Shown here piece after piece: positions 2 to 22,019 of a stretch of DNA of 34,598 nt. The notes beneath the pieces were generated by a model, which was not told where the DNA came from, searched no databases, and worked only from the letters and a program-made list of their open reading frames with translations. This DNA comes from Sulfurimonas sp. (GTDB lineage: Bacteria > Campylobacterota > Campylobacteria > Campylobacterales > Sulfurimonadaceae). The first letter of the stretch is position 1. Each line of letters begins with the position of its first letter. The stretch covers positions 1-34,598 of the forward strand of contig WFNM01000081.1 in the NCBI GenBank assembly GCA_015488615.1, written 5' to 3'. The position numbers were made by a program, and so were the translations under genes.

Positions 2-187
2 TGTGGGCGCGGCTTCCTTTATGAAGAACAAAAAACTGCAACTTTTATAGCAGCCATACAAAGAGCACTTAAGTGCTACGAAGATAAAAATGCACTTCAA
101 AAACTTCAACAGTTTAACATGCAGTGTGACTTTTCCTTTGAAAAAAGTGCTTTACAGTACATAAAGCTCTATAAGGAAATTTTATGA
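2..187 (+). CDS. C-terminal fragment of a glycogen/starch synthase-like (GT5) glycosyltransferase, truncated by the window edge
   Basis: Frame 2 translates without stops as CGRGFLYEEQKTATFIAAIQRALKCYEDKNALQKLQQFNMQCDFSFEKSALQYIKLYKEIL*, which resembles the GT5 C-terminus (GxGFxFxE...AxxRAL..Y.D...W..L...M..DFSWEKSAxxYxxLY). Its stop overlaps the next start (ATGA). Confidence 0.6.
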   Translation, partial: CGRGFLYEEQKTATFIAAIQRALKCYEDKNALQKLQQFNMQCDFSFEKSALQYIKLYKEIL

Positions 188-1026
188 AACTCGGCATTGA
201 TATTGGCGGTACCTATCTGCGTTATGAGTTGCTTGAGAAAAATGTTATAGTTGAAAAAGAGTCTTTAGAGAGTTCTTCGCTTGGGCTTTGTGCATTTTTA
301 GAGCGTTTTTTAACATGCAACAGCAATATTACTGCAGTTTTTATCTCTTATGCAGGACAGGTTGCAAAGGGAAAAATCCTCTCTGCGCCAAATATAAAAA
401 TCGACAGATATGATTTGCAGGAGTACATAGAGTCAAAATACGATGTCGAACTCTTTTTGGAAAATGATGTGAATTGTGCTGTTTTGGCAGAAGCTGCATT
501 TTTTCAGAGCAAAGACATCTGTGCAATGTATGTCGGTACAGGTTTGGGGCTTGGCGTAGTTTGTGGCTCACATCTGCTACATGGTGCTGATAATATTGCC
601 GCAGAACTTGGGCATATTCCTTTTAAGCGTTCCCCTTTTGTCTGCTCCTGCGGCAAGAACAACTGCGTAGAGCTTTTTTGTTCGGGAAGCGGACTTTTAC
701 GCTGGAAACAAAAAGAAAATCTTGATGTACAACTCTCACTTTCAGGGTTAAAACAGAGTTCAAATGCAGCAGCACAACAAATTTACAATACTTTTTTTGA
801 AGCACTTTTACATACTGCAGGAACGGTAGTTACACTCTTTAACCCAAAAGTTTTGGTCTTTGGCGGTGGTATCATTGATGATGAAAAAGCGATTCTCACA
901 CAGATACAAAAGAAGATACAAGAGTATGCACTGCCTCTTGCTATAAAAAATTTACAAATTAAAAAAACACAACTCAAAAATGCTCCACTGCAAGGTGCAT
1001 TTTTATTAAAGGATAATTATGTCTAA
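184..1026 (+). CDS. ROK-family sugar kinase (probable glucokinase)
   Basis: N-terminal LGIDIGGTYLRYELL phosphate-binding motif; ENDVNCAVLAEA; GTGLGLGVV; ROK zinc motif GHIPF...CSCGKNNCVE. Confidence 0.9.
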   Translation: MKLGIDIGGTYLRYELLEKNVIVEKESLESSSLGLCAFLERFLTCNSNITAVFISYAGQVAKGKILSAPNIKIDRYDLQEYIESKYDVELFLENDVNCAVLAEAAFFQSKDICAMYVGTGLGLGVVCGSHLLHGADNIAAELGHIPFKRSPFVCSCGKNNCVELFCSGSGLLRWKQKENLDVQLSLSGLKQSSNAAAQQIYNTFFEALLHTAGTVVTLFNPKVLVFGGGIIDDEKAILTQIQKKIQEYALPLAIKNLQIKKTQLKNAPLQGAFLLKDNYV

Positions 1027-4407: not shown

Positions 4408-4418
4408 AGGAGAATACG

Positions 4419-5669
4419 ATGATACAGTTTGAAAATGAATACCTTTGGGAACTCGATAAAAGTTTAGAGGGCATTATGATAAATACTTATGAAACAATCT
4501 TGAAAGAGAAGAAAAAAGGGACTTCAGGGTATTTTACTTTAGGCAGCGACTCTTTGGAAATTATGGAAGATGCCAAGCAGCTTGCACAGACAAACACTTT
4601 TGTTAAGCAGTGTGATACGGTTGTCGTCATTGGCATTGGTGGTTCTTCACTTGGAACAAAAGCTATAGAGTCCATTTTTAAGCATAAAACTGCAGGTGTA
4701 AAAAGAATGCTCTTTTTAGAAAATCCTGATGAAATTGACCTTTCGGATAAGCTTGTTTCCATTGAGAAGGCAAAAACACTCTTTTGTGTTGTCTCAAAGT
4801 CGGGGCTTACCATAGAGACCATCTCTATATTTAAAGAGGTGATAGAGTATTTTGAACTTGACTATAAAAGTCCACAAAAAGAGCAGATAGTTGCTATTAC
4901 AGATGAGGATTCTGCACTGCATAAATTTGCACACCAGTATGGAATAAAAACTTATAATATTCCTGCAAATGTTGGTGGTAGATTTTCAGTGCTCAGTGCT
5001 GTTGGTATTGTGCCTTTAACCATAGCCGGATACGATACAAAAAGTATTTTGGAAGGAGCTTCTGCAATGGCAGAGAGCTTTTTTCATGGCAAAGAGAACC
5101 ATCTACTCAAAAAAGCGGCACTCCTTACGAAGCACAGAAAAGAAGCATCCATAAATGTAATATTTTCTTATGCAAACTGTTTGGAAGATTTTACAAAATG
5201 GTATGTGCAACTCTGGGCAGAATCACTTGGAAAAGTAGATATATATGGCAACCATACAGGGCTAACTCCTATAGGTCATATAGGTTCAGTTGATCAGCAC
5301 TCATTTTTACAGCTCATTATGCAAGGACCAAGAGATAAAACAGTCACATTTATAAAAGTAGAGAAATTTGAAAAAGAGATAAAAGTTCCAAATATAAAAC
5401 TAAAATTTTTAGAAAAAACAGACTACATAAACGGCTTTAGTTTTAATGAACTCATAGATGGCGAATGTGAAGCGACGAAAGAGAGTTTATCTCATGTTGG
5501 AATAAATGTCGATAAAATCACACTTGACTCTTTAAATGAAAAAAATGTCGGCAGACTCATCTTATACTATGAGCTTTTAACATCTTTATGTGGCATTATA
5601 CTTGAAGTAAATACCTACGATCAGCCAGGTGTAGAGATGGGAAAAAAGATTTTAAAAAATAAATTTTAA
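4419..5669 (+). CDS. pgi: Glucose-6-phosphate isomerase
   Basis: VVVIGIGGSSLGTKAIES, VVSKSGLTIET, NVGGRFSVLSAVGIVPL, DQHSFLQLIMQGPRDK, YDQPGVEMGKK. Confidence 0.94.
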   Translation: MIQFENEYLWELDKSLEGIMINTYETILKEKKKGTSGYFTLGSDSLEIMEDAKQLAQTNTFVKQCDTVVVIGIGGSSLGTKAIESIFKHKTAGVKRMLFLENPDEIDLSDKLVSIEKAKTLFCVVSKSGLTIETISIFKEVIEYFELDYKSPQKEQIVAITDEDSALHKFAHQYGIKTYNIPANVGGRFSVLSAVGIVPLTIAGYDTKSILEGASAMAESFFHGKENHLLKKAALLTKHRKEASINVIFSYANCLEDFTKWYVQLWAESLGKVDIYGNHTGLTPIGHIGSVDQHSFLQLIMQGPRDKTVTFIKVEKFEKEIKVPNIKLKFLEKTDYINGFSFNELIDGECEATKESLSHVGINVDKITLDSLNEKNVGRLILYYELLTSLCGIILEVNTYDQPGVEMGKKILKNKF

Positions 5670-5711
5670 ATGAGCTAGATATAATAAAAGTAATTCAAAA
5701 AAACAAAAGGA

Positions 5712-6413
5712 TTGGTGAAAATACACAATATGAAATATAAAAAAATTATAACTAACTTAAAGAAGACATTTTTCTTTTCGGAAATGGATGATACCTTTTT
5801 TGAGATGGCAGCAACTCATTTTCAAGAAAAAAAGTTACAAAAGCTAGCTACTATTGATAGTGAAGAGACACTCAAATACTTTTATGTAATAATAGAAGGA
5901 AATATAAAATCTTCTTACCTTAACCCTGAAAATGCAAGAAGTATTACACCTTTTTTACTTAGTGAGTATGAAGTGTTTGACATCGTACCTGTCATTGATA
6001 AAAAAGAAAATTTGATGGATTACACAGCACTTGATACTTGTGTACTTTTACAAATTGAAGCACATTATATTCGCTCATGGATTGTAGAATATTCGCAACT
6101 AAACACAAATCTTTTACAATGTCTTTCTAGAAAATTTCGGGAAATGGAAGAGTTTTCTCGCTCACTTGTTTTTTACGATGCGAAAACACGTCTTGCAAAT
6201 CTTCTACTCAAACAAGAAAGTAGTTCTTCAAAAATAAGGAATAAACTTTCTCATGAAACACTTTCAGAGATGATAGGTAGTGTACGGACTATAGTAACAC
6301 GAGACTTACAAGAACTTAAAAAAGATGGCATCATTGTAGATAAACGGGCTGCAATAATAATAAAAAATCTTGAAAAATTAAAAGAGCGTTGTGCTAAGTA
6401 TATAGGTTTGTAA
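5712..6413 (+). CDS. Crp/Fnr-family transcriptional regulator
   Basis: cNMP-binding-like N-terminal half (FYVIIEGNIKSSYLNPENAR) and winged-helix C-terminus (LSHETLSEMIGSVRTIVTRDLQELKKDGII). The start codon is uncertain (TTG 5712, GTG 5715 or ATG 5730). Confidence 0.8.
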   Translation: MVKIHNMKYKKIITNLKKTFFFSEMDDTFFEMAATHFQEKKLQKLATIDSEETLKYFYVIIEGNIKSSYLNPENARSITPFLLSEYEVFDIVPVIDKKENLMDYTALDTCVLLQIEAHYIRSWIVEYSQLNTNLLQCLSRKFREMEEFSRSLVFYDAKTRLANLLLKQESSSSKIRNKLSHETLSEMIGSVRTIVTRDLQELKKDGIIVDKRAAIIIKNLEKLKERCAKYIGL

Positions 6414-6443
6414 AATAGTATGTCACTTAAGTAACATGCTATT
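6414..6443. repeat. 30-bp near-perfect inverted repeat (AATAGTATGTCACTT/AAGTAACATGCTATT) between the Crp/Fnr gene and gap; operator or terminator-like hairpin
   Basis: Arms match at 13 of 15 positions as DNA, with no spacer. No long T-tract follows, so a classical rho-independent terminator is not obvious. Confidence 0.55.
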
Positions 6444-6500
6444 TACTTTATAGGGAGTATAATTTTCAAGAGTTAAATATTGTTTTACAAGGAAGAAAAT

Positions 6501-7508
6501 ATGAAAAAGCGTATAGCTATAAATGGACTGGGGCGTATCGGAAATCAGGTACTAAGACATTACATTAACAATTTACCAAAAAATTGTGAGATAGTTGCGG
6601 CAAACACTTCGAGTGTTGAAGATGCTGCCTATCTTTTAAAATATGACTCAGTGCATGGCAGAGCAAATTTTGACATTCAAACGCAAGAGAATAAACTCAT
6701 AGTTGATGGGCATGAGATTGCCATAGTGAGCAGTCATAACCCTCTTGAACTCCCTTGGAAAGAGCTTGACATCGACATCGTTTTAGAGTGTACTGGACGT
6801 TTTACTGATGGTACTTTAGCACAGCAACACATCACAGCTGGTGCAAAAAAAGTTATTATCTCCGCACCGGGAAAAAATGTTGACCTTACAATAGTGAAGG
6901 GTGTGAATGAGAAAGAGTATGACAACACTATGCATCATATCATATCAAATGCCTCTTGTACTACCAATTCACTAGCACCTGTTATGAAAGTGCTAGAAGA
7001 GAATTATGGTGTAGAAAATGCGATGATAACAACAACACATGCATACACTTCTTCGCAAGTTACAGTTGATAAGCGTGCCAAAAAACGCAGACGTGGTCGT
7101 GCATCGGCTATAAATATTATCCCAACAACAACGGGTGCAGCTATTGCCACTGTAGAAGTTATTCCTGCCTTAGAAGGTAAAATGGAAGCGATGGCACTAC
7201 GTGTACCTGTCCCTGATGGAGCTATTACTGAAGTTGTAGCACTCTTAAAAAAAGATGTCACAAAAGAGGCACTCAATGCGACATTTAAAAAGGCTTCAGA
7301 GGATGAACTTCAGGGGATTTTGGAGTTCAGCACTGAAGAGATAGTCTCTTCTGACATTATCAACAATCGTCACTCTTGTATCATCGATGGACTCTCAACC
7401 GCAGTGGTCGGAAATAAAATGGTAAAAGTTATGGCATGGTATGATAATGAATATGGATATTCACAAAGAATACTAGAAGTTGCAGAGTATATTGCAGGTA
7501 AATTATAA
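6501..7508 (+). CDS. gap: Glyceraldehyde-3-phosphate dehydrogenase
   Basis: RIAINGLGRIG, catalytic SNASCTTNSLAPV, RRGRASAINIIPTTTGAA, WYDNEYGYSQR. ATG at 6501 is preceded by AAGGAAGA; the ORF track start at 6480 (TTG) is probably too far upstream. Confidence 0.95.
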   Translation: MKKRIAINGLGRIGNQVLRHYINNLPKNCEIVAANTSSVEDAAYLLKYDSVHGRANFDIQTQENKLIVDGHEIAIVSSHNPLELPWKELDIDIVLECTGRFTDGTLAQQHITAGAKKVIISAPGKNVDLTIVKGVNEKEYDNTMHHIISNASCTTNSLAPVMKVLEENYGVENAMITTTHAYTSSQVTVDKRAKKRRRGRASAINIIPTTTGAAIATVEVIPALEGKMEAMALRVPVPDGAITEVVALLKKDVTKEALNATFKKASEDELQGILEFSTEEIVSSDIINNRHSCIIDGLSTAVVGNKMVKVMAWYDNEYGYSQRILEVAEYIAGKL

Positions 7509-7530
7509 AAAAATTATTTAGGAAGTTCAG

Positions 7531-10164
7531 ATGCTAGAGCAAGCTATAGATTTAGATAAATTAACTGGTTTAAGCGAAGAAGATGTTAAAGAGCGTATTG
7601 AAAAGTATGGTTATAACGAGATAAACGAAAAAGAGGAAACATGGTACCATCGGCTTTTTAAAAAGTTTTGGGGCCCTATTCCTTGGATGATTGAAATTGC
7701 TGTTGTTCTCTCAGCAATAGCACACCGTTGGGAAGATTTCTCCGTTATTATGCTTATGCTTTTAGTAAATGCTTTTGTTGACTTTTATCAGGAGTCAAAA
7801 GCATTAAGTGCTATTTCTGTATTAAAGAAAAAGCTAGCTCGTAAAGCACTTGTCCTGCGTGAGGGTGAGTGGAAAAATATAGATGCTAAAGAGATTGTTC
7901 CTGATGATATAATTAAGATAAAAATTGGAGATGTTGTCTCTGCTGATTGTACACTTCTTGGTGGTGGAGACTTTTTGCAAGTTGACCAATCTGCACTTAC
8001 AGGTGAATCGCTTCCTGTAAATAAACAGCTTGGGGAGACTTTGTATGCAAATGCCATTGTAAAACAGGGTGAGATGATTGCAAAAGTAACAGCTACAGCA
8101 CTTAACACCTACTTTGGAAAAACTGTAGGTCTTATTGCAAAAGCAGAAAAAGAAGAAAATGGGCACTTCCAGCAAATGGTCATTAAGGTGGGTGATTACC
8201 TTATTTTCATGACTATTTTCCTAATTGCCATTATTATTTGGCATGGTGTTGCAAGGCATGAACCACTTATGGATTTACTGATTTTTTCACTTATTTTGAC
8301 CATTTCTGCCATTCCTGTTGCTATGCCAGCAGTTTTAACCGTTACTATGGCTTTAGGTGCAAGAGTTTTAGCATCGAAAGAGGCCATAGTCACTAAACTA
8401 TCTGCCATTGAAGAAGCTGCAGGTATGGATATACTATGTTCGGACAAAACAGGAACACTCACACAAAATAAAATGAGTCTCGCTGACCCTTATCTTTCTA
8501 GTAATTATACTGAAGACCAGCTTCTTTTATATGCTGCATTTGCAAGTAAAAAAGAGAATGAAGACCCAATAGAAAAACCTATATTTGACTATTTGGATGC
8601 ACATCAACTCAATAGCAAACTTATAGAAAAAAAGATGAAAAAGTTTGTACCTTTTGATCCTGTCAGTAAAAAAACAGAGAGTATTTTTACTGATGATATG
8701 ATTTATACCAAAGGTGCTCCTCAGATTATTATTGAACTATGTGATGAAAAAGAGTTTGACAAGAAAGAGGCATATAAAGAGGTAGACTCTTTTGCAGAAA
8801 AAGGTTTTAGAGCATTAGGTGTAGGATACAAAAAAGAGGGTGAAGACAAGTACCATTTTGTAGGACTTGTTCCTCTCTTTGACCCTCCTCGTGAAGACTC
8901 AAAACAAGCAATAGCTGAATCAAATGCAAAAGGTGTTTCAGTTAAGATGGTTACAGGTGATAATATTGCCGTTGCAAAATATATCTCCGGTATTTTAGAA
9001 ATAGGTCAAGATATAGAAGACATAAAAGAGCTCAAAGGTCAAAGTACACAAGAGTATGTTTTTCTTTCTCAAATCATTTCTCGTTCTATTTTAAAAACCT
9101 TACAAACTGAGGTAGATGAGGATACACTTAACAAAGAAGTTACTAAGATTGTCGCTAATGTACAAAAAGAGCTAAATTCGCAGCCTCTCCCAACAGGTAG
9201 TGTCAAACAACATGAATCTGAAATAGTACAGGTTATAGAAAAAGCCAATGGGTTTGCACAAGTATTTCCAGAAGACAAATACTATATAGTAGATAAACTC
9301 CAAAAAGCAAACCATATTGTTGGAATGACAGGTGATGGTGTTAATGATGCACCTGCACTCAAAAAAGCAGACTGTGGTATTGCTGTAAGTGGTGCAACTG
9401 ATGCCGCTCGTGCGGCAGCTGACATTGTACTAATGGCTCCTGGTCTTCGTGTCATAGTAGATGCCATAGAACAAGCTCGCATAGTGTTTGAGCGGATGAA
9501 AAGTTATGTAGTTTATAGGATTGCAGAGACAATTAGAATCTTATTCTTTATGACCTTAGCAATTGTAGTTTTTGATTTTTATCCTATTACGGCTATTATG
9601 ATTATTTTACTTGCACTTTTAAATGATATTCCTATTATGGCAATTGCATATGATAATACAAAGGTAGATAAAAAGCCTGCTCGATGGGATATGAAAGGTG
9701 TTTTTATTTTATCAAGTTGGCTTGGTATTGCAGGAGTTATAAGTTCTTTTACACTTTTTTATATAGTAATGGATTATTTAAAAATGCATCCATCATCTAT
9801 CTATTTTCCAGCTCTTCCGACAGGGATTGATCCTAAAGATAGCAAATCATATCTGGGCTTTGTACAAACTTTGTTTTTTATTAATTTAATTATCGCAGGG
9901 CATTACACAATATTTAATACCAGAATTGCAGACTGGTTCTTTAAAAGAGCATGGCCATCTTGGCAACTATTGGGAGCATCGTTCATTACAGCATTTGGTG
10001 GGACATTAGTAGGAATTTATGGTTTACATATTATGACTGCAATAGGCTGGGAATGGGCAATGTATATTTGGGCATATGCATTTATATGGTTCGTTTTTAA
10101 TGATATAGTAAAAATGGGTATCATTAAACTCTATAAAAAAAGATATGGAAAAGCTGTTTTATAA
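7531..10164 (+). CDS. P-type (P3A, plasma-membrane type) proton-exporting ATPase
   Basis: LTGES, CSDKTGTLTQNKM, MVTGDNIAVAK, MTGDGVNDAPALKKADCGIAV, FWGPIPWMIE and multiple TM segments; overall like fungal/plant H+-ATPases and their bacterial homologues. Confidence 0.9.
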   Translation: MLEQAIDLDKLTGLSEEDVKERIEKYGYNEINEKEETWYHRLFKKFWGPIPWMIEIAVVLSAIAHRWEDFSVIMLMLLVNAFVDFYQESKALSAISVLKKKLARKALVLREGEWKNIDAKEIVPDDIIKIKIGDVVSADCTLLGGGDFLQVDQSALTGESLPVNKQLGETLYANAIVKQGEMIAKVTATALNTYFGKTVGLIAKAEKEENGHFQQMVIKVGDYLIFMTIFLIAIIIWHGVARHEPLMDLLIFSLILTISAIPVAMPAVLTVTMALGARVLASKEAIVTKLSAIEEAAGMDILCSDKTGTLTQNKMSLADPYLSSNYTEDQLLLYAAFASKKENEDPIEKPIFDYLDAHQLNSKLIEKKMKKFVPFDPVSKKTESIFTDDMIYTKGAPQIIIELCDEKEFDKKEAYKEVDSFAEKGFRALGVGYKKEGEDKYHFVGLVPLFDPPREDSKQAIAESNAKGVSVKMVTGDNIAVAKYISGILEIGQDIEDIKELKGQSTQEYVFLSQIISRSILKTLQTEVDEDTLNKEVTKIVANVQKELNSQPLPTGSVKQHESEIVQVIEKANGFAQVFPEDKYYIVDKLQKANHIVGMTGDGVNDAPALKKADCGIAVSGATDAARAAADIVLMAPGLRVIVDAIEQARIVFERMKSYVVYRIAETIRILFFMTLAIVVFDFYPITAIMIILLALLNDIPIMAIAYDNTKVDKKPARWDMKGVFILSSWLGIAGVISSFTLFYIVMDYLKMHPSSIYFPALPTGIDPKDSKSYLGFVQTLFFINLIIAGHYTIFNTRIADWFFKRAWPSWQLLGASFITAFGGTLVGIYGLHIMTAIGWEWAMYIWAYAFIWFVFNDIVKMGIIKLYKKRYGKAVL

Positions 10165-10922
10165 TGACTAAAAAAGAGTACAAACAAGAGCTTTATAACT
10201 TACAAGTTGAACTCGTGAAGTTTCAAAAAGAGATTATTACTAAAGATTTAAAAGTATGTATCATTTTTGAAGGACGAGACAGTGCAGGAAAGGATGGTAT
10301 GATAAAACGTTTTGTAGAGCATTTAAGCCCTCGAGATGCAAGAGTCGTAGCCCTTGGAAAACCGAGTGATATAAATAAAAAATCTTGGTATTTTCAAAGG
10401 TATGTGCCACATTTACCTGTCGGCGGAGAGGTAGTCTTTTTTAACCGTAGTTGGTATAACAGAGCAGGTGTTGAAAAAGTGATGAATTTTTGTACAGGCA
10501 AAGAATATGATAGTTTTATGCAAGAAGTAGGAAATTTTGAACATCTTTTAGTAAATTCAGAAATCATTTTTATAAAATATTACCTTGATATTTCAAAAAA
10601 AGAGCAGGCCAAAAGACTACTAGAAAGAAAAAAAGACCCTTTAAAACAATGGAAACTTAGTCCTATTGATGAGCAGGCACAACAACAGTGGAAGAGCTAC
10701 TCGAAAACAAGGGATAAGATGTTTGATCATACATCTTTTGTTTTTGCTCCTTGGTATGTTGTGCATAGTGACGACAAAAAAATAGCTCGTATTAATACTA
10801 TTAAACATTTTTTATCTCAAGTGAAATATAAAGATAAAGATGAAAAATATTTACATTATGATCATGATACGGTATGTTTGTTTGATGATATCTGTTATGA
10901 AAAAGGCTTCATCTACAAATGA
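10164..10922 (+). CDS. ppk2: Polyphosphate kinase 2 family protein
   Basis: Walker A FEGRDSAGKDGMIKRF, FFNRSWYNRAGVEKVM, RLLERKKDPLKQWKLSPID lid-like region. Start overlaps the ATPase stop (TAATG). Confidence 0.93.
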   Translation: MTKKEYKQELYNLQVELVKFQKEIITKDLKVCIIFEGRDSAGKDGMIKRFVEHLSPRDARVVALGKPSDINKKSWYFQRYVPHLPVGGEVVFFNRSWYNRAGVEKVMNFCTGKEYDSFMQEVGNFEHLLVNSEIIFIKYYLDISKKEQAKRLLERKKDPLKQWKLSPIDEQAQQQWKSYSKTRDKMFDHTSFVFAPWYVVHSDDKKIARINTIKHFLSQVKYKDKDEKYLHYDHDTVCLFDDICYEKGFIYK

Positions 10923-10942
10923 ATATAAAAATTAAGGTGTGA

Positions 10943-11264
10943 ACACAATACAAGAGCCAAATTTCTCCTTTTAAGATTTGCCTTGCAGTTGTTGTGATTT
11001 TTACCATCAGTTATGGTGAATACATTTTACAAAAACATTTTTCCTTTAAAAGGCTACTATCTTAGAAGGGTAGTATTAGAAAATCTAAACAAATTGAGGG
11101 TTCGAGAATTATAGATGCAGCTATTATTAGTACAACTTCAATTATGTATTTACATTTAATTGTTGTTGCTTTAATATTTAAGATAGATAGATGAATTAAG
11201 TGCTAAACTCGAAGAAGAGGTAAAGGCATTCTATAAAATAAAATTATTTACTAAAAAGGCTTAA
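10943..11264 (+). pseudogene. Decayed gene for a small membrane protein
   Basis: Hydrophobic coding-like segments in two frames broken by stops/frameshifts: YKSQISPFKICLAVVVIFTISYGEYILQKHFSFKRLLS*, then SIRKSKQIEGSRIIDAAIISTTSIMYLHLIVVALIFKIDR*, then in another frame DELSAKLEEEVKAFYKIKLFTKKA* ending at the pdhA start. Confidence 0.4.
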
Positions 11265-12223
11265 TGATGAACAAATTACTCGCAGAAGAGATGTACTACT
11301 TAATGACTCTAGGCAGAAAGTTTGAGTATGCTGCAAAAGAGAACTATATGAAAGGAAATGTGTCAGGATTTTTACATCTTGACATTGGACAAGAAGCATT
11401 GAGTGTTGGGGCAATAAAAGCTTTTGAAAAAGGTGATGTTTTTGCAACCTACCGTGAGCATGTGATGGCAATAGCAAGAGGCTTAGAACCCAAAGCTGTG
11501 ATGGCAGAACTTTTTGGAAAAGTAAACGGTGTTAGTGGTGGTAAGGGAGGCAGTATGCACCTATTCGAGCCTTCACGCTTTTTTTATGGTGGTGATGCAA
11601 TAGTCGGTGGTCATATCCCAAATGCAGTGGGGTGTGCTTATGCTCGAAACCTGCAGGGAAGTGAAGATGGTGTGATGGTTATTTTTGGGGATGGTGCTAC
11701 AAATGGTGGTGCTTTTTTTGAATCACTCAACATTGCTGCAACACATAAACTTCCATTGCTTTTTTTATGTGAGAACAATGAATATGCCATTGGCACAAAT
11801 ATAAAATATACGGCACCATTTCGAGAGCAGGCTAAAAAAGCAGAGCCTTATATGATGACACTATCTGTTGACGGTATGAAAGCTGAAGCAGTTTATGAAA
11901 CAATAAAAGAGGCTCAAAAGCTTATTGAAGATGGGCATGGCCCTGTTTTTGTGGAGGCTTTTACCTGTAGATTTGAAGGACACTCTGTAAGTGACTCCAA
12001 TAGTTATAGAAGTACACAGGAGATGAAACATTGTAAGGCAAAGGACCCTCTAGTGCATTTTAAAAAAGAGTTGTTAGAGAGATGGATGTGCAGTGACAAA
12101 GAGTTAGAAAAAATTGAAAAAAAAGCACAAACAATGGTAGATGAAGCAGTTGTATTTGCTGAAAATTCAGAAGAACCAAATGCAGCAGCTCTGTTTGAAC
12201 ATGTGTTTACAGAGGAGGTGTGA
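11264..12223 (+). CDS. pdhA: Pyruvate dehydrogenase E1 component, alpha subunit
   Basis: GFLHLDIGQEA, TYREHVMAIARG, GKGGSMHLF, VIFGDGATNGGAFFESLNIAATHKLPLLFLCENNEYAIGT (ThDP motif GDG..N). Confidence 0.92.
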   Translation: MMNKLLAEEMYYLMTLGRKFEYAAKENYMKGNVSGFLHLDIGQEALSVGAIKAFEKGDVFATYREHVMAIARGLEPKAVMAELFGKVNGVSGGKGGSMHLFEPSRFFYGGDAIVGGHIPNAVGCAYARNLQGSEDGVMVIFGDGATNGGAFFESLNIAATHKLPLLFLCENNEYAIGTNIKYTAPFREQAKKAEPYMMTLSVDGMKAEAVYETIKEAQKLIEDGHGPVFVEAFTCRFEGHSVSDSNSYRSTQEMKHCKAKDPLVHFKKELLERWMCSDKELEKIEKKAQTMVDEAVVFAENSEEPNAAALFEHVFTEEV

Positions 12224-12224
12224 G

Positions 12225-13202
12225 ATGTTATACCGTGAAGCATTAAATAAGGCACTTGATGAGGTGATGGAAATAGATGACACAGTGGTAACACTCGGAG
12301 AAGATGTAGGTCTATATGGCGGTGCTTTTCGAGTAACAGAAGGACTTGTAGAAAAGTATGGTGAAAAACGTGTCATTGATACACCCATAGCGGAGCTGAG
12401 TATTGTCGGGAATGCAGTTGGTATGGCTATAGGTGGTCTTCGCCCCGTTGCTGAGATTATGACAGGAAATTTCTCTTTACTCGCATTTGATCAGATTATA
12501 AATCATATGGCTAAACTCCATTATATGAGTAATGGAAAAATCACTTTACCAATGGTAGTTCGATTTCCACAAGGTGTTAGTAAACAACTTGCAGCACAAC
12601 ATAGTGAAAGTTATGAACAGATGCTAAGTAGTGTACCAGGATTGAAGGTTCTGAGTGTTAATGATATTAATTATGCATATCATGCATTTAAATATGCCAT
12701 ACTTTCAAATGACCCTTTTGTATTTATAGAACATGAACTTCTTTATAACAAAAAGGGCGAAGTAAATTTTGCGCAACAACTTGACCCTTTTAAAGCACGC
12801 ATTGTGAAAGAGGGAGAAAATATTACCATTATCTCTTATCTGAAGATGGTTGATGATGTTATGCAGAGTGTTTCTGCCATTGAAAGTGCATTAAATTGTT
12901 CGTGTGAGGTTATAGATTTATGTTCACTCAACCCTATAGACTATGATACATTAGCGATCTCTATCAAAAAAACTTCAAGGGCTATTATGGTTGAAGAAGA
13001 CCATAAAACAGGTGGATTTGGCTCACAAGTAATTGCATGGGTAGCTGAGGAAATGTTTTACACTCTTGATGCTCCACCATTGCGTTTAGGAGGAACTGAT
13101 ACTCCTATTGCTTACAATAGAACACTAGAGCTTGCATCTATTCCTACACCTGATTCTATAGCACAAGATATTATAGCATGGGGGAAGAAAAACGATGTAT
13201 GA
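12225..13202 (+). CDS. pdhB: Pyruvate dehydrogenase E1 component, beta subunit
   Basis: LYREALNKALDEVMEIDDTVVTLGEDVGLYGGAFRVTEGL, RVIDTPIAELSIVGNAVGMAIGGLRPVAEIM. ATG at 12225 fits the conserved N-terminus better than the ORF track start at 12141. Confidence 0.93.
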   Translation: MLYREALNKALDEVMEIDDTVVTLGEDVGLYGGAFRVTEGLVEKYGEKRVIDTPIAELSIVGNAVGMAIGGLRPVAEIMTGNFSLLAFDQIINHMAKLHYMSNGKITLPMVVRFPQGVSKQLAAQHSESYEQMLSSVPGLKVLSVNDINYAYHAFKYAILSNDPFVFIEHELLYNKKGEVNFAQQLDPFKARIVKEGENITIISYLKMVDDVMQSVSAIESALNCSCEVIDLCSLNPIDYDTLAISIKKTSRAIMVEEDHKTGGFGSQVIAWVAEEMFYTLDAPPLRLGGTDTPIAYNRTLELASIPTPDSIAQDIIAWGKKNDV

Positions 13203-14469
13203 AATAGTAATGCCACAACTCTCTGACTCCATGGAAGAAGGAAAGTTAGTTAGTTGGAAAGTAAGTGTAGGTCAAAGTGTCAAAAGTGGGGACGTTATAG
13301 CTGAAGTGGAGAGTGATAAGGCAATTATGGAGGTACAAACCTTTAAAGATGGTGTTGTCAAAGAACTTTTGGCAAAAATAGATGATGAAGTAAAGATTGG
13401 GGCTATTATTTCACGTATTGAAACGGGTGTGAAAGCTTCTACTGAGCAAGAACCATCAACAGTTAATCTGATAACAGTGCCAAAAGAGGAAGATACTCCA
13501 AAAGAAGAAGTAAAAAAAGTAGAAACAAAACCAAATGTAGTAGAGAAAAACAGTGTTTTAGATGAAATATTTGATACATCAAGTGTTACTACCATTGCTC
13601 ATAAAACACAAAGTGGTATCTCTCCAAAAGCTAGAGCTAAAGCTGCTGCAGTAGGTGTTGATATTGAAAAGATTCAAGCGAAAATGCCACAAAAATTGCT
13701 TCATGCAGAGGACGTAAACGAGTATGTCACAGAGAAATATTTTACACCAAAAGCTTTGAAACTACTGAAAGAGTACCAGTTGAAAAACTCACTTTTTGAA
13801 CTTAATCATAAGGTAGATAGTGATGAAGTACAAAGCTACATAGATGCAAATGAAATAGCACTCCCAAAAGCACTTTCGCCGATGCAAAAGGCAATCATTG
13901 CAAATGTAATACTCTCTGCTCAAAAGCCCATCTATCATATTTATGAATCAATAGATGCCAAACTTTTTGAAGTACACCATGCACATAGTATGACTGCATG
14001 GCTAGTGAAAATTTTTGCAAAAGTAATGATGCAGCATGAGAGTTTTCGCACACAACTTTTAGATAATGCCCTCTCCATTGCTTCAAATGCTTCACTCTCC
14101 ATTGCTGTAGCAGATGCAAAAAATCTTTATATGCCTGTCATCAAAGATGCAAACAGACTTACAATTTCTGAAATAACAGAACAACTCTCTGCATTTAAAG
14201 AGAAACTGATAACAAATAGTTTTAGTGTTCAAGATATGCAAGGAGGCACTTTTGGCATCTCAAATCTGGGAATGCTCGGTGTCGCATGTTTTGATGCGAT
14301 GATAAACAAAGATGAGAGTGCCATCGTTGCAGTGGGTGGTATTAGTGATGGCAAAATTAGTGTCACACTTACAGCAGACCATAGACTTATAAACGGCTAT
14401 GAAGCAGCACTTTTTATGGCAGATGTAAAAAAAGAGGCGAGTGAGCCTTTAAACTTTAAGGAGCAGTGA
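13195..14469 (+). CDS. pdhC: Pyruvate dehydrogenase E2 (dihydrolipoamide acetyltransferase)
   Basis: Single N-terminal lipoyl domain MPQLSDSMEEGKLVSWKV...AEVESDKAIMEVQT; peripheral-subunit-binding domain SPKARAKAAAVGVDIEKI; C-terminal GTFGISNLGMLGV...TLTADHRLINGYEAALF. Confidence 0.93.
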   Translation: MYEIVMPQLSDSMEEGKLVSWKVSVGQSVKSGDVIAEVESDKAIMEVQTFKDGVVKELLAKIDDEVKIGAIISRIETGVKASTEQEPSTVNLITVPKEEDTPKEEVKKVETKPNVVEKNSVLDEIFDTSSVTTIAHKTQSGISPKARAKAAAVGVDIEKIQAKMPQKLLHAEDVNEYVTEKYFTPKALKLLKEYQLKNSLFELNHKVDSDEVQSYIDANEIALPKALSPMQKAIIANVILSAQKPIYHIYESIDAKLFEVHHAHSMTAWLVKIFAKVMMQHESFRTQLLDNALSIASNASLSIAVADAKNLYMPVIKDANRLTISEITEQLSAFKEKLITNSFSVQDMQGGTFGISNLGMLGVACFDAMINKDESAIVAVGGISDGKISVTLTADHRLINGYEAALFMADVKKEASEPLNFKEQ

Positions 14470-15786
14470 ATGTATGACATAATTTACATAGGTGGTGGGT
14501 TGAACTATGCAGGAGCTATAGTTGCTGCAAAGAATGGGAAAAAAGTTGCTCTTATTGAGAGTGATATGAGTCAACTTGGAGGGATCTGTCTTCATAAGGG
14601 CTGTATACCTTCTAAAATGTTCTTACACTACTCGAATCTTGTTTATGAGTCACAAAATGAGATAGTTAACGGCTCACCGCATTTAGATATGAAGATACTT
14701 TGTGAAAAAAAAGATGATCTGCTAAAGAGTGTCACAAAAGTTGTACAACAACAATGCTCTCATTTTGAATTGATTGAGGGAAAAGGAAAACTGATTGCAC
14801 CACATAAGGTGGAAGTCAATGGCAAGGTAATAGAAGGTAAAAATATTGTTATAGGGACGGGTTCTTCGCCTTTTATTCCTGAAGGTATAGTGCATAATGC
14901 AAAAGATGTTATCATCAGTGATGATGTTTTAAACTTGCAAGAACTTCCAAAAAAAATAGCTATTTATGGAACGGGTGCTATAGGGCTTGAAATGGCAAGT
15001 TTTTTTGCAACGGCTGGTGTAGAAGTGTCCCTTATAAATAGACATGATAAGATACTAAAAAATGCACATCCAAGCATTGAGAATGCGGTACAGATGCAGC
15101 TTGAAAAACTGAATGTAAATATTTTAAGTAATCATTCAGTAAACAAAGCAAAATCAACAAAAAAAGGTGTGCATATCACTTATGAAGATGGTGGCAGTAA
15201 CTATACAGAGATGCTACTTGTTGCAACAGGGCGACGACCAAATATAGATGTGATTGGATGTGATGCAATAGAAGTTAAGCATGGTATTGTCACAGATACA
15301 TACTTTGAGACAACACTTGAAAAACATTATGCTATTGGGGATTGTAACGGTAAGCTTCAACTTGCTCATGCAGCTCGTGCAGAAGTCCTAAATGTTACAG
15401 AGCATATTTTAGGTAAAAATCCTCATCCACTGGATTTAGAACATGTTGTAAAGTTCATTCATACTCTACCGATGAGCTATGCAGTAGTTGGAAAAACTAA
15501 AATACAACTAGAGAATGCAGGAATAAAATATAAAGAGAGTTTAGTGGCACTCAACCAGTTTACATATTCCTCTTATAATCATGCAAATAAAGGTTTAATG
15601 GTAAGTTTTGTTGATGAGGAGGGCTTTATATTGGGTGCTGAAATCTTAGCACCACATGCAGAGGAAATTATAGCTACTGTTGCTATGAGTTTAGCAGGAG
15701 AGATGGATGTTACACAGGCTAAGAGAACCATCTTAGCACATCCAACTTTTTCTGAAGCCTTAGAGAGAACATTTTATAAGTTATGA
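14470..15786 (+). CDS. lpd: Dihydrolipoamide dehydrogenase (E3)
   Basis: GGICLHKGCIPSKM redox-active CxxxxC, GTGAIGLEMASFFATAGVEVSLI NAD-binding motif, ATGRRPN, YAIGDCNGKLQLAHAA, AHPTFSEALE. Confidence 0.92.
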   Translation: MYDIIYIGGGLNYAGAIVAAKNGKKVALIESDMSQLGGICLHKGCIPSKMFLHYSNLVYESQNEIVNGSPHLDMKILCEKKDDLLKSVTKVVQQQCSHFELIEGKGKLIAPHKVEVNGKVIEGKNIVIGTGSSPFIPEGIVHNAKDVIISDDVLNLQELPKKIAIYGTGAIGLEMASFFATAGVEVSLINRHDKILKNAHPSIENAVQMQLEKLNVNILSNHSVNKAKSTKKGVHITYEDGGSNYTEMLLVATGRRPNIDVIGCDAIEVKHGIVTDTYFETTLEKHYAIGDCNGKLQLAHAARAEVLNVTEHILGKNPHPLDLEHVVKFIHTLPMSYAVVGKTKIQLENAGIKYKESLVALNQFTYSSYNHANKGLMVSFVDEEGFILGAEILAPHAEEIIATVAMSLAGEMDVTQAKRTILAHPTFSEALERTFYKL

Positions 15787-16367
15787 TTATTCATCAATGG
15801 GGAGAGATTGAGTATAAAGAGGCAAGAGAAAAGATGCAAGCTGTTCATACACTTGCGTATGAAGATGGACAAAATCATCTCATCCTCTGCTCACATCCAG
15901 ATATATTCACCATTGGAACATCAGAAAAAAAGAGTTTTGATGTAGATGTTATTCAAAGTGATCGAGGTGGCTCTATTACCTGCCACTCTCCTGGACAAAA
16001 TATCTACTATTTCTGTTTTCAGGTAAAAAGCCCTGCCCAATTTTACAAAAAGGTTATTAGTGCATTTGAGGCTTTTTTTATAAAATATCTACCTCAAGTA
16101 AAATACCATAAAGAACAAGCTGGCTTTTACATTCAAAACCGTAAAATCGCCTCTCTTGGATTTCGCTATTCACAAGGTCTCTCTCTACACGGAGTTTCTC
16201 TGAATGTCGATGTAGATTTGGATTTTCATGTACAAGTGAACCCTTGTAATATAGAGGGGATTATTCCTACTTCCCTTGTAAATGAGAATCTTCATCTCTC
16301 GCAAGAAATGGTTAACAGAGTACTAGTGCATTTCATAGAGGAGAGTTTTTATGATACAGCAGTTTAA
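15783..16367 (+). CDS. lipB: Octanoyl-[ACP]:protein N-octanoyltransferase
   Basis: SDRGGSITCHSPGQNIYYF (cf. RGGxxTxHxPGQ), KIASLGFRYSQGLSLHGVSLNVDVDLDFHVQVNPCNIEGIIPTSL with the catalytic Cys context; next to lipA. Confidence 0.9.
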   Translation: MIIHQWGEIEYKEAREKMQAVHTLAYEDGQNHLILCSHPDIFTIGTSEKKSFDVDVIQSDRGGSITCHSPGQNIYYFCFQVKSPAQFYKKVISAFEAFFIKYLPQVKYHKEQAGFYIQNRKIASLGFRYSQGLSLHGVSLNVDVDLDFHVQVNPCNIEGIIPTSLVNENLHLSQEMVNRVLVHFIEESFYDTAV

Positions 16368-17208
16368 ACCAAAGGTAAAAGCACCCGCTCCTGAATTAGT
16401 TCAAAATATGCAAAAAGTATTGCAAAATAATCATCTTACAACAGTATGCGAAGCGGCAGCCTGTCCAAATAGAGCAGAGTGTTATAGTCGTGGGAGTGCA
16501 ACTTTTATGATTTTAGGAGATGTTTGTACACGAGCCTGCTCGTTTTGTAATGTAAAAACTGGGCACGGAAAAAATATAGATGAAGAAGAGCCTCTGCATT
16601 TAACAAAGGCTATTAAAGAGCTAGGCTTAAAGTATGTCATCATTACTTCTGTTGATAGGGATGATTTAAAAGATTATGGTTCAAAACAATTTGTGGCATC
16701 GGTGAAAAGTATAAAAAAATACAATCCTAAGATAAAAATAGAGCTATTAACACCCGATTTTCACTATGATAAACCTGCCTTAGAGAGAATTATAGCAAGT
16801 GATGTCTACAAACTTGCACATAATCAAGAGACAGTACGAAGGCTCAGTAGAACTATTCGTCCTCAGAGTGATTATGATCGTTCATTAAAAGTTTTGGAGT
16901 ATTATGCTAAAAACTCCAACAAAATTGTCAAATCATCTTTGATGGTAGGGCTAGGAGAGCATGAAAATGAACTGAAAGAGAGTATGCATGAGCTTTTAGA
17001 TGTTGGTGTGAGTGAGATAACCATTGGGCAGTATTTACAGCCTACATCAAAGCATCATAGTGTCGAAAAGTATTATAATGCACAGTTTTTTCATGATTTA
17101 AAAGCTGAAGCCTATAGTATGGGATTTCAAGCTGTGGCATCAGGGATATTGGTGCGAAGTTCTTATTTTGCAGAAGAGTTAAAACCTTTTTTAGTATATA
17201 AGAATTAA
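16351..17208 (+). CDS. lipA: Lipoyl synthase (radical SAM)
   Basis: CEAAACPNRAECYSRGSATFMILGDVCTRACSFCNV carries both the auxiliary-cluster and radical SAM cysteine motifs; C-terminal GILVRSSYFAEE. Confidence 0.96.
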   Translation: MIQQFKPKVKAPAPELVQNMQKVLQNNHLTTVCEAAACPNRAECYSRGSATFMILGDVCTRACSFCNVKTGHGKNIDEEEPLHLTKAIKELGLKYVIITSVDRDDLKDYGSKQFVASVKSIKKYNPKIKIELLTPDFHYDKPALERIIASDVYKLAHNQETVRRLSRTIRPQSDYDRSLKVLEYYAKNSNKIVKSSLMVGLGEHENELKESMHELLDVGVSEITIGQYLQPTSKHHSVEKYYNAQFFHDLKAEAYSMGFQAVASGILVRSSYFAEELKPFLVYKN

Positions 17209-17345
17209 TTTAGAAATCGTTCAGTTGTTATTTTATTAGGATTTGCTACAATTTATGTAACTATTATTCATAGTAAAAAAACATTATAACTTTTTACTTT
17301 AGCTGATATTTTTTTGCTAATGTATTAATAAAGAGGAGAATATTT

Positions 17346-18305
17346 ATGTCGTTGGCTATTATTTGCTCAGGAGGTGATGCTCCAGGTATGAATCCTGCTA
17401 TTAAAAAATTTGTCGATTATGTTTACGGTAAAGGTGAACAAAGTTACTTTATCTATGATGGTCTTGAAGGTCTTATAGATAATAATATAAAGGAAGCTTC
17501 CTATAAAGATGTTGCTGGTATTGTGCATCTTGGTGGTACTATCATTCGCTCTTCACGCTCCAAAAGATTTTATGAACACAAATATAGAAAACAAGCCTAT
17601 GAAAACCTAAAAGCACTTGACATAGATGGTGTAGTAGTCCTGGGTGGTGATGGCTCTTTTCGGGCTATGGAAGTTTTTAGTTCTGAGTTTGCTATAAATT
17701 TTGTGGGTATTCCTTCCACTATTGATAATGACATTTATGGTAGTGAATATTGTCTAGGTGTGGATACCTCTTTAAATGTCATTCGTGATGCTGTAGATAA
17801 AATACGTGATACTGCATCTTCTTTTAATCGCGCATTTATTATTGAAGTGATGGGGCGAGAATGTGGTTATCTCGCAGCTGTTTCAAGTATCGTGAGCGGT
17901 GCAGAAATATGTGTCATTCCTGAAATAAAATTTGATAAAGAGAGTGTGCAAAAACAGCTTAAAGCTGAAATAGACAATGGCAGAAAGTATGTCCTTGCCA
18001 TTGTCGCAGAGGGAACAAATAAAAGTTCAGAAATTCATGACTGGATTGAAAAAGAGCTTGGGCTTGAGACAAGAGTCAGCATACTTGGTCATATTCAAAG
18101 AGGGGGTAATCCCACTGTGTATGATCGTCTTATGGCATTTGACTTCACCATAGCTGCTGTAGATTATCTGCTTGCATATAAAGATTCAAACAAGGTTGTT
18201 GTCTATAATAAAGGCGAGCTTTCATTTATAGAGATAAAAGAGGTTGTTTCAAAAAAATATGTTTTACCTCAGAAGCTCATAGGTTCTATTAAATATTTAG
18301 ATTAA
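17346..18305 (+). CDS. pfkA: 6-phosphofructokinase (ATP-type signature)
   Basis: GGDAPGMNPAIK, VLGGDGSFRAME (GGDGS favours ATP-type over the PPi-type GGDD), IPSTIDNDIYGSEYCLGVDTSLN, EVMGRECGYLA, LGHIQRGGNPTVYDR. Confidence 0.92.
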   Translation: MSLAIICSGGDAPGMNPAIKKFVDYVYGKGEQSYFIYDGLEGLIDNNIKEASYKDVAGIVHLGGTIIRSSRSKRFYEHKYRKQAYENLKALDIDGVVVLGGDGSFRAMEVFSSEFAINFVGIPSTIDNDIYGSEYCLGVDTSLNVIRDAVDKIRDTASSFNRAFIIEVMGRECGYLAAVSSIVSGAEICVIPEIKFDKESVQKQLKAEIDNGRKYVLAIVAEGTNKSSEIHDWIEKELGLETRVSILGHIQRGGNPTVYDRLMAFDFTIAAVDYLLAYKDSNKVVVYNKGELSFIEIKEVVSKKYVLPQKLIGSIKYLD

Positions 18306-18362: not shown

Positions 18363-18827
18363 TTAAAGTGCTGCTTGGAGTTGTAGATAAACTTGCCAAA
18401 GAGCAGAGCTTGATATTCCTGCAGCAGCTCCAGCTATGATAGAGGAAGCTATAACACCCACTCCACCTTTAATACTTTTTTCTATACGACCAATGATAGA
18501 TATCTTTGTAATCATAAAGAAAATGAAAAGTACAAAAGAGAGTAGGGCTTGGATAAGAAAGCCATTTCCAAATACTAAAATATCTTTTATTTCAACACCA
18601 AATGCAGGTGCAATGCTCAGTGCAAACCAGAGTCCAACAAAAGAGTTGAGAATTACACTTTTAGTATCAAAATTCTTATCTTTATTTATTTTTGCATTAA
18701 TAGTTTTAATAGCTAATATACTTAGAAGTAGTGTAGCTAAAAAGAGTGTTTCCTCATCAAAATAGATAAGGATACTTAGTCCACTTATAAGTGAAAATAG
18801 TGTAATTGCGATAGTTCTACTATTCAT
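18363..18827 (-). CDS. PgpA-like (phosphatidylglycerophosphatase A family) membrane protein, apparently lacking catalytic residues
   Basis: C-terminal half aligns by eye to PgpA: SVILNSFVGLWFAL (cf. VIDEVVGxWxAL) and FIFFMITKISIIGRIEKSIKGGVGVIASSIIAG (cf. FRxFDIxKP..IxxxdxxVkGGxGVMLDDVxAG). Its position two genes after an HP1021-like regulator matches remembered C. jejuni Cj1607-Cj1610 order. Confidence 0.65.
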   Translation of the reverse strand: MNSRTIAITLFSLISGLSILIYFDEETLFLATLLLSILAIKTINAKINKDKNFDTKSVILNSFVGLWFALSIAPAFGVEIKDILVFGNGFLIQALLSFVLFIFFMITKISIIGRIEKSIKGGVGVIASSIIAGAAAGISSSALWQVYLQLQAAL

Positions 18828-18839
18828 ATTTTTTAAATC

Positions 18840-20030
18840 CTATGTTAGTGATGTTGTTTGGTAGAGCTTCATAAGCTCAATATAAAAATCTTTCTCTGAG
18901 TGTTCCTCTAAAAGACCTTTAGTAGCGAAAGTATCATAGTAGATTTTTTCTAAGTTTTTAAATCTATTTGGGTAGAGTTTAGCAAGTAAAAATGCACTAA
19001 TCTGTTTTCGCATTAAAACAGCAGGAGGTAAAATTCCTGCTTCAAGAAGTTGCAATATAGAGTCTGCATGATAAGAGATTTGATGGTGTTGTCCATGCGG
19101 ACAAGTATTTTTACTTACAAGTGTTGTGCACTGATCACAGTAGACATACTCACTTGCAATATGAATTTCTATATCTATACCGGTAACCTTATCTACTATT
19201 GATTTGTTAGAGTTACACTCATAAAACATACCAAGACCAGCATGGTTACGTCCTATGGTAAGCCTATCACAGCCGTAGTTTTTGGCCACTATCGCATCGA
19301 TGATTATTTCGTTATATCCTGCAAAGATGTAGCTGTTTTCTAAAGGAACGATAACAACACGGTTTTTAGGTAAAAAGTTATTAACAAAGAATTCTAGCGA
19401 CTCATGTCTAAGATCATAGTTGAGGTTTGCAGTCTCGTAAGGTTTAAGTAAAAATATTACAAGCAAATCAGTATTGTCAAGTGCTTGACGAATAAGTCTT
19501 TCATGCCCACGATGTAGAGGATTTGCTGCCATAACTAAGGCAGTTGTATGCTTTGCATTTATCGCTTTTTTTGCAGTGCGAATATTAATCCTGTTTTGGT
19601 TTGGAGCATTATCACATAAAACATAGTTCCCACTAACTGCCCAGTGCCCAAGTCTTTTTATCGTGGCTTGTACTCCAGGGTGCGAAAGGTCATCTGTACC
19701 GTATATATGTTTGACTCGCTCATTAGGATCTATTTCGAAAGCCTCCTCAACATTGAGTGTAGCAAAAACTTCACCCTCACAGATAATATCAATAAGTTCA
19801 TTTTTTTCTACTTTACTTAAAAGAAGTTCATTTTTCTTTCCTGAAGGTGCAAGAATAAAAGGAAAAGGGAAAGATTTTCCATGTATGAGGCCTTTTTCTA
19901 AAACCCCACGAGAACCCTCTTCACACATCAGTTTTGTAACTGGCAGGAGAAGCCCATCTGAGACAAGTTCAAGAGCTGAAGCAGCTTCTTTATCTATAAA
20001 AAGTGTTTTATTTTTTCTTAACAATGTCAT
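18840..20030 (-). CDS. Divergent ATP sulfurylase (sulfate adenylyltransferase)-family protein
   Basis: ALVMAANPLHRGHERLIRQAL (cf. QTRNPLHRAHE), LTIGRNHAGLGMFY (cf. GRDHAGPG), CDQCTTLVSKNTCPHG (C-x2-C-x8-C-x-H zinc-type motif), HPGVQATIKRLGHWAVSGNY. Confidence 0.85.
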   Translation of the reverse strand: MTLLRKNKTLFIDKEAASALELVSDGLLLPVTKLMCEEGSRGVLEKGLIHGKSFPFPFILAPSGKKNELLLSKVEKNELIDIICEGEVFATLNVEEAFEIDPNERVKHIYGTDDLSHPGVQATIKRLGHWAVSGNYVLCDNAPNQNRINIRTAKKAINAKHTTALVMAANPLHRGHERLIRQALDNTDLLVIFLLKPYETANLNYDLRHESLEFFVNNFLPKNRVVIVPLENSYIFAGYNEIIIDAIVAKNYGCDRLTIGRNHAGLGMFYECNSNKSIVDKVTGIDIEIHIASEYVYCDQCTTLVSKNTCPHGQHHQISYHADSILQLLEAGILPPAVLMRKQISAFLLAKLYPNRFKNLEKIYYDTFATKGLLEEHSEKDFYIELMKLYQTTSLT

Positions 20031-20895
20031 ATTTTTTCCGTTTTTCCCATAAGCTTTTACGGCTTATGCCTAGTTTTTTACTAAGTTCAGTATCTGGATA
20101 TTTATCTTGATAATTAAGTACTATATATTTTACATAATCCTCAATAGGTAATATCTCACCCTTATCAAAGACATTATTTTCATTTTTAATTTCTATGATT
20201 GGATATGCAACATCCTCAAGTTTATCACTACTTGCGACAATAACTTGACGACCTTTGATTAGATCACAGAATGTTTTTTTATCAGCTTTTTTGAGTGTTT
20301 GGTAGTCTATGATGTAGATAAGTGTATTTTGTGGTAATGAGCTTACTTCATTAAGACTTTTTGGATCACTAAGTGTAATAAAATGCATTGGTAAGTCTTT
20401 TGATTGTGCATACTCAAAAGCGAAGGCATCTGCATACTTTTGAAATCCAGAACTGATAAAGAGAGGGAGTTCAACAGCATCTATATTTTGCTCATGCTGA
20501 GCATTGATAAATATATGTTTGAGGTACTTCTCATAAGCACTATTTCTGCGTTTAAGCTTCTCATAGTCTTGATAATGGTTAATCTTTCTTACAAGTTCTT
20601 CTATCATAAATGGTTTCATGATATAGTCTTTAGCACCAGCAGCTAGAGGTTTTGATACTGTATCATTGCTGATGTATGAAACCATAAGAATAACGATAGA
20701 ACTCTTAAAAGTTTCAACGACAGGAATGAAATCTTGACCATTTATATTTGTAGAGAGAAGTACTACATCATAGTTATTACTACGAATAGCATCTTTTGTA
20801 GATGTGCACATTTCACAAATATGTCCTTGCTCACCAAGTTTTGTTGCTATGCTCTGTGCGAGGTAGACTTCGTTTTCGATTATTAGTATTTTCAT
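20008..20895 (-). CDS. Atypical orphan response regulator, HP1021/Cj1608-like
   Basis: N-terminal receiver-like domain (ILIIENEVYLAQSIATKL...DYIMKPF) with Ser at the phospho-acceptor Asp position (YDVVLLSTNINGQD); C-terminal Fis-like HTH PDTELSKKLGISRKSLWEKRKKYDI. Length and neighbours (ispDF, Sat-like, PgpA-like) fit the Campylobacterota HP1021 family. Confidence 0.8.
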   Translation of the reverse strand: MKILIIENEVYLAQSIATKLGEQGHICEMCTSTKDAIRSNNYDVVLLSTNINGQDFIPVVETFKSSIVILMVSYISNDTVSKPLAAGAKDYIMKPFMIEELVRKINHYQDYEKLKRRNSAYEKYLKHIFINAQHEQNIDAVELPLFISSGFQKYADAFAFEYAQSKDLPMHFITLSDPKSLNEVSSLPQNTLIYIIDYQTLKKADKKTFCDLIKGRQVIVASSDKLEDVAYPIIEIKNENNVFDKGEILPIEDYVKYIVLNYQDKYPDTELSKKLGISRKSLWEKRKKYDIVKKK

Positions 20896-20900: not shown

Positions 20901-22019
20901 TTAATTCTTCCAGTTATAGTATTTTAGATTTGCATTTGAGGTGACTGCTACACCCTCTTCTCGACCAATAAAGCCAAGTTTTTCTGTGGTTGTCGCTTTG
21001 ACATTGACACGACTCATATCTATCTCAAGAAGTGAGGCTATAGTCTCTCTCATTTGGCGTTTATACTTGCCGATGCGAGGTTTTTGTGCTGCTATAGTAA
21101 CATCTACATTGACTATGATAAAGCCAAAATTGTGCAGTTTCGTAACAACTACTTTGAGGAGCTCTTTTGAGTCTATCCCTTTATATCTATCATCATTATC
21201 AGGAAAGAGCATGCCTATGTCACCCATTCCCGCTGCACCGAGTAGGGCATCTATGAGAGAGTGTAGGGCGACATCCCCATCACTATGTGCTAAAAAGCTA
21301 AAGTCAGACTCTATCTCAACACCACCAAGCCACATAGTTCCCTCTGTATCAAAAGCATGAACATCGTAACCGTTACCACTAAGTGTATCAGTTGATGGAG
21401 CCTCTAGGCAAGGGATTTTGTTTAAGTCATGGATGTAAGTGATCTTGTGGGCATCCTCTTCACCAAGGATAAAACTACGCTTTCCACCATTGGCTACTAT
21501 AGCACTACTCTCATCCGTAAACTCTTCACTCGTTTGCAGTGCTGACTTTAATGTAGAAACACGAGAGAGTTGTGGAGTCTGTATGCGTTTTACTTTATCT
21601 CTATCTATAGTTTCATTTTCATAGACTATAGTATCGGTAACTTTGAGGTAAGGAACTACAGAGTCACTCTTACCTTGTTCATCTAGAATAGACTCAAGTA
21701 AAGTAGTGCTAATACAAGCACGAGCGATGTCACTGACAAGAACATACTCACTCTCTACAAGTGCAAGTGTATTTTTGAGTGACTGCTGTCGAGTGTTACC
21801 ACCCTTTACAAACTTGTATGAAGCATAGTTTTGCATAAAGGGCATTTCATCTTCTGCACAAACTATAATAATCTCATCAAATTTTTGAGTTTTTTCTAAG
21901 TTCTGTGCTACAAATTGCCATAAAGGTGTGTGGTTTATACGCAACCAGTGCTTCTTTACACCCATCTCAAAACGGCTAGAACTCCCAGCTGACAGTAATA
22001 TAAGCGATAATTTAGACAA
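20901..22019 (-). CDS. ispDF: Bifunctional IspD/IspF (MEP cytidylyltransferase / MECDP synthase)
   Basis: IspD part LILLSAGSSSRFEMGVKKHWL...VSDIARACIS; IspF part GNGYDVHAFD..LGGVEI...LAHSDGDVALHSLIDALLGAAGMGDIGMLFPD...NVKATTTEKLGFIGREEGVAV. Confidence 0.95.
   Translation of the reverse strand: MSKLSLILLSAGSSSRFEMGVKKHWLRINHTPLWQFVAQNLEKTQKFDEIIIVCAEDEMPFMQNYASYKFVKGGNTRQQSLKNTLALVESEYVLVSDIARACISTTLLESILDEQGKSDSVVPYLKVTDTIVYENETIDRDKVKRIQTPQLSRVSTLKSALQTSEEFTDESSAIVANGGKRSFILGEEDAHKITYIHDLNKIPCLEAPSTDTLSGNGYDVHAFDTEGTMWLGGVEIESDFSFLAHSDGDVALHSLIDALLGAAGMGDIGMLFPDNDDRYKGIDSKELLKVVVTKLHNFGFIIVNVDVTIAAQKPRIGKYKRQMRETIASLLEIDMSRVNVKATTTEKLGFIGREEGVAVTSNANLKYYNWKN

Follow-up and report, generated by a model that had tools for sequence, protein, structure and literature searches.

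How does a bacterium come to keep the gene for a standard lipid phosphatase, in its usual operon and with an open reading frame, once the encoded protein has apparently lost its catalytic residues? The question is raised by a 34,598-nucleotide stretch of DNA from Sulfurimonas sp. (assembly GCA_015488615.1, contig WFNM01000081.1, positions 1 to 34,598), hereafter the window, and it concerns phosphatidylglycerol synthesis, a core membrane step. In E. coli the last step, dephosphorylation of phosphatidylglycerophosphate (PGP), is performed by PgpA, PgpB or the Mg-dependent PgpC; loss of all three is lethal, and PgpC alone can sustain phosphatidylglycerol synthesis (PMC11629553, PMC8027125). The window gene and the positions at which its product departs from an alignment of 20 intact Campylobacterota PgpA homologues are as follows:

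18363..18827, minus strand: degenerate pgpA, 154 aa with an ATG start, encoding an apparently catalytically dead PgpA-family membrane protein
18804..18827, minus strand: shortened N-terminus lacking the PGTxG block (alignment columns 19-24)
18642..18647, minus strand: N61-S62 where intact homologues have an invariant D-E pair (D 20/20, E 20/20)
18513..18524, minus strand: I102 to M105, replacing the invariant R and D (R 20/20, D 20/20)
18441..18446, minus strand: S128-S129 where intact homologues have an invariant D-D pair (20/20), GVMxDD having become GVIASS

A sequence-only reading of the window had taken this ORF for a PgpA-family protein deprived of its catalytic acidic residues, and a profile search bears out the homology: the protein matches PF04608 (PgpA, the family of the E. 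coli enzyme) at 48.3 bits (E 1.3e-12, cut-off 28) over profile positions 21-139 of 141. Six columns that read D, E, R, D, D and D in every intact homologue are N61, S62, I102, M105, S128 and S129 in the window copy, which carries FIFFMITKIS where the motif is FRxFDIxKPS; the N-S pair at 18642-18647 and the A-S-S of GVIASS at 18441-18449 are exactly as first read, and the alignment also confirms the missing N-terminal motif, with an N-terminus some 14 residues shorter than in intact homologues. The HD pair keeps its aspartate (D54) and has lost its histidine. What the window copy shares with the enzyme is the helical membrane scaffold: the hydrophobic helices and a KGG motif (IKGGVG) remain, as that reading had also noted, and the AlphaFold model comprises six helices at a mean pLDDT of 90. 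Judged by their invariance in intact homologues, the lost residues are apparently of the catalytic type, and Mg-dependent PGP phosphatase activity is expected to be absent. Three close relatives show the same losses and 12 genomes carry a degenerate but open copy, which excludes chance or sequencing error. A solved-structure search with intact PgpA returned no match, and a fold search with the PgpA model gave nothing significant (YpjQ entries 1tlq and 1rfz only at E 2.7-4). Constraint imposed by an overlapping antisense ORF was considered and rejected: that ORF, of 109 codons, is interrupted in several relatives.

The degenerate gene comes last in the order ispDF, regulator, Sat-like gene, pgpA in this Sulfurimonas-genus MAG, the same operon position that intact pgpA occupies in the genus:

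20901..22019, minus strand: ispDF, the start of the operon (PF01128 and PF02542)
20008..20895, minus strand: response-regulator-like protein (PF00072, 38.6 bits), recognized by synteny and presumably, from its position, HP1021/Cj1608-like
18840..20030, minus strand: Sat-like gene of the ATP-sulfurylase family (PF01747, 182 bits), used as the locus marker

The Sat-like gene adjoins pgpA in nearly all loci of the genus, and the suspected conserved operon is thus real, its order being the same nearly throughout. The further suggestion that the dead PgpA might partner the regulator or the Sat-like protein finds no support: nothing beyond synteny links them to it, and since genomes with intact PgpA show just as tight a synteny, gene order says nothing about the dead copy. 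On its other side, degenerate pgpA directly abuts a long plus-strand run of sugar, glycogen and pyruvate-dehydrogenase genes at 184-18305 (ROK kinase, GlgA, GlgB, Pgi, GAPDH, P-type ATPase, PPK2-like, PDH E1-E3, LipB, LipA and PFK, identified by reading the sequence, with an HMM check for PFK only); relatives carry PykF, MscS or other genes in its place, and the run looks unusual for a chemolithoautotrophic genus.

We found no other PgpA match in the window genome, a MAG of 1.84 Mb in 150 contigs that is 86.5% complete, and in the 99% complete relative G051 the degenerate copy is likewise the only pgpA. Those degenerate genomes that were checked retain pgsA, the ordinary gene for PGP synthase, and PGP should therefore still be made and need dephosphorylation. 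PAP2 (PgpB-type) proteins, which could also supply a PGP phosphatase activity, occur in most PgpA-degenerate genomes; they are equally present where PgpA is intact, however, and so do not explain its loss.

Across 135 genomes of the genus, intact PgpA (>100 bits) is found in 113 and a degenerate, open pgpA at the same place in 12: group A (G000, G049, G051, G084), group B (G060, G063, G110, G126) and the further genomes G028, G029, G122 and G123, where the copies of G029 and G123, which have no real Pfam match, were located by synteny. The assemblies of the remaining 10 genomes lack the locus or break within it. Eleven genomes without a pgpA match were weighed as counter-examples and set aside, since eight also lack the Sat-like gene, two have it truncated by the assembly and one (G123) is degenerate. 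The frame is open in all 12 degenerate copies, and no orthologue is frameshifted. All 11 copies tabulated lack E62 and R102; group A, G028, G029 and G122 have lost the D-D pair as well, whereas group B retains both that pair and D61. In a tree of the Sat-like protein, a single gene and pgpA's neighbour, the degenerate copies fail to group as a single clade (AU P 1.6e-28), so that a single loss event is rejected on that tree, with which a further analysis agrees; its well-supported branches force at least three changes to degenerate PgpA, with G029, for example, grouping with the intact genomes G010 and G003 at 100% support.

Most of these genomes share a phosphatase of another kind. Exactly 10 of the 135 genomes contain a member of a distinct HAD-IB family with a score above 265 bits (the next best hit reaches 89 bits); all 10 are PgpA-degenerate, and the family occurs in none of the 113 genomes with intact pgpA (Fisher P ~7e-15 for 10/0 vs. 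0/113, uncorrected for relatedness). It was not seen in two degenerate genomes, G122 (82% complete) and G123 (54% complete); in G122 a PgsA-like gene lies at a contig end, and the adjacent HAD gene may simply be unassembled. Among 397 genomes of the class, the family is absent from other genera. A second PgsA-like protein of 245 aa is encoded in seven genomes of the genus, all PgpA-degenerate, and forms with the HAD-IB phosphatase, an inositol-monophosphatase-family protein and a protein without a Pfam match a cassette often inserted in the pgpA neighborhood. This cassette separates the glutamate dehydrogenase and MscS genes in G000, G029, G049 and G084, with one or two more genes inserted alongside it in G084 and G049; the intact genomes G010 and G003 have these two genes immediately adjacent, and from that junction on to pgpA they carry the genes found in G029. 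The four group B genomes have no second PgsA and carry a solitary HAD gene after trpB; their PgpA is decayed as well. Whether the HAD gene was gained or was repeatedly lost from a shared ancestor, both readings imply redundancy with PgpA.

The HAD protein is PgpC-like in kind by sequence and structural model, a candidate rather than a proven PgpC. Like PgpC (E. coli YfhB, TIGR01545), it belongs to the HAD-IB phosphatases, has a DxDGT motif and measures about 200 aa; it matches PF12710 at 4e-23, and its model (mean pLDDT 82) matches HAD-IB phosphatases of the PDB such as SerB at E ~1e-8. Unlike PgpC, it is closer to TIGR01490 (91.5 bits, just under the cut-off of 98.3) than to the PgpC equivalog TIGR01545 (26.9 bits, far below the cut-off of 259.25), and it has the fold and motifs of the class save for motif IV, GNSSGD, in which N takes the place of the usual first acidic residue. 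That it and intact PgpA exclude each other in more than one lineage, with or without the second PgsA, points to PGP as the substrate, and we infer that it performs the same step as PgpC. The partner encoded in the cassette resembles PgsA (TIGR00560, PF01066) in its full CDP-alcohol transferase motif, DxxDGxxAR..GxxxDxxxD; it differs in its extra C-terminal stretch and in scoring 91.9 bits against a cut-off of 109.1, and is additional to ordinary pgsA.

Taken together, these observations lead us to propose that the PgpC-like HAD-IB protein probably replaced PgpA as PGP phosphatase and that the dead PgpA was retained, most likely in a non-catalytic role. The conversion of PGP to phosphatidylglycerol would have passed to this unrelated phosphatase here and at least two more times in the genus, usually with a second, PGP-synthase-like PgsA protein encoded beside it; because an unrelated enzyme apparently took over, PgpA could then have shed its conserved acidic and basic residues. 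Its six-helix membrane scaffold was not discarded and is still under purifying selection. Speculatively, the retained protein might serve as a scaffold or as a membrane partner of the peripheral HAD phosphatase or of the synthases. We regard as unlikely the stronger version, in which several Sulfurimonas lineages have in parallel turned the dead PgpA into a non-catalytic subunit of the membrane, dedicated to anchoring or regulating the HAD phosphatase and the PGP synthases. The case resembles pseudoenzymes kept after non-orthologous displacement, in that catalytic residues are lost, the fold is under selection and an unrelated enzyme would supply the activity; the literature searched holds no report of a PgpA pseudoenzyme after such displacement. 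What is new here is that recurrent PgpA loss goes together with the presence of a HAD-IB phosphatase whose gene lies elsewhere in the genome. Wherever that one phosphatase occurs, the standard enzyme has repeatedly been deactivated but in no case deleted. This names a candidate new family of PGP phosphatases, cautions that a 'pgpA' annotation in a Sulfurimonas genome does not always equal PgpA activity, and provides a natural series of intact, half-lost and fully lost PgpA in which to ask why dead enzymes are kept.

Replacement could also have been followed by mere decay, with the open frame a remnant under some weak leftover constraint, such as the avoidance of harmful membrane proteins, and with no new role. 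Pairwise maximum-likelihood omega within group A, where by parsimony all sites had already been lost in the common ancestor, is 0.13-0.24, with every test rejecting a value of 1 (LRT 31-56); intact PgpA pairs give 0.02-0.09. A tree-based codon model, whose optimizer ended at its iteration limit and whose synonymous distances are saturated in group B, yields approximate values of 0.048 for intact copies, 0.23 for group A, 0.06 for group B and 0.16 for the stems, and fixing group A at 1 costs 44.6 lnL. Degenerate PgpA is thus under relaxed but clearly purifying selection, weaker than that on the enzyme. Simple decay draws on this relaxation, omega being 3-5 times above that of intact copies, and on the shrinking of the loop around residues 44-60 in G028, G029 and G122. 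It sits poorly, however, with the rejection of neutrality inside a clade in which every site was already gone, with a group B omega near the intact value, and with simulation: neutral evolution over the observed distance introduces about six stop codons and hardly ever leaves the frame open, against 12 of 12 open copies. We consider decay without a role possible but doubtful. Low omega and open frames together imply that the PgpA scaffold is kept, and the frameshifts, stops and neutral evolution of a pseudogene are not what these copies show. The sequence-only reading was in this respect sound, a retained pseudoenzyme being the better description, just as its homology, residue losses and operon setting hold up and only the regulator or Sat-like partnership lacks support. 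Residual selection of this kind makes a non-catalytic role most likely, though part of it could reflect the safety of membrane insertion and not a positive role.

A second alternative assigns the HAD protein to another phospholipid, made with its PgsA-like partner, while PAP2 proteins of the PgpB type cover PGP. The cassette does encode an inositol-monophosphatase-family protein and an unassigned one as well, and PAP2 is present in all degenerate genomes tested; on the other hand, PgpA has also decayed in the four genomes that carry the HAD gene alone, with no second PgsA, and PAP2 is as common where PgpA is intact. We find this reading improbable. That the altered PgpA is still an enzyme, with other chemistry or another substrate handled through shifted residues, is very unlikely: group B is strongly conserved and keeps D61 and the D-D pair, and E. 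coli PgpA also takes glycerol-3-phosphate (PMC11629553), but neither the window copy nor any of its three sisters has a charged residue at the sites of D61, E62, R102, D105, D128 and D129, and no new conserved acidic cluster is visible.

The proposed replacement by a HAD phosphatase is not the sole road to PgpA erosion. In L052, a Helicobacteraceae MAG, a half-degraded PgpA (7207-7710, plus strand) has changed E to K, R to I and D to N and kept the D-D pair in the absence of the HAD family; this erosion is independent of the Sulfurimonas cases, although the E to K change is the same as in group B. Separately, L049, a MAG from a cave sample labelled Helicobacter cetorum and perhaps misnamed, has no PgpA match in its genome.

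Some features of the cassette deserve mention in their own right. Homologues of the HAD and PgsA-like proteins on plasmids are remote ones only. The cassette at L063:7428-10270 recurs with the same genes in L064-L068, adjoining MscS, and might serve to synthesize or recycle the head group of an unusual phospholipid or osmolyte. Its protein of 254 aa at L066:9869-10633 (plus strand) has no Pfam or NCBIfam match and, by eye, appears glycerophosphodiester phosphodiesterase-like (HRA, NTEEAF, AEGDV, HHPD).
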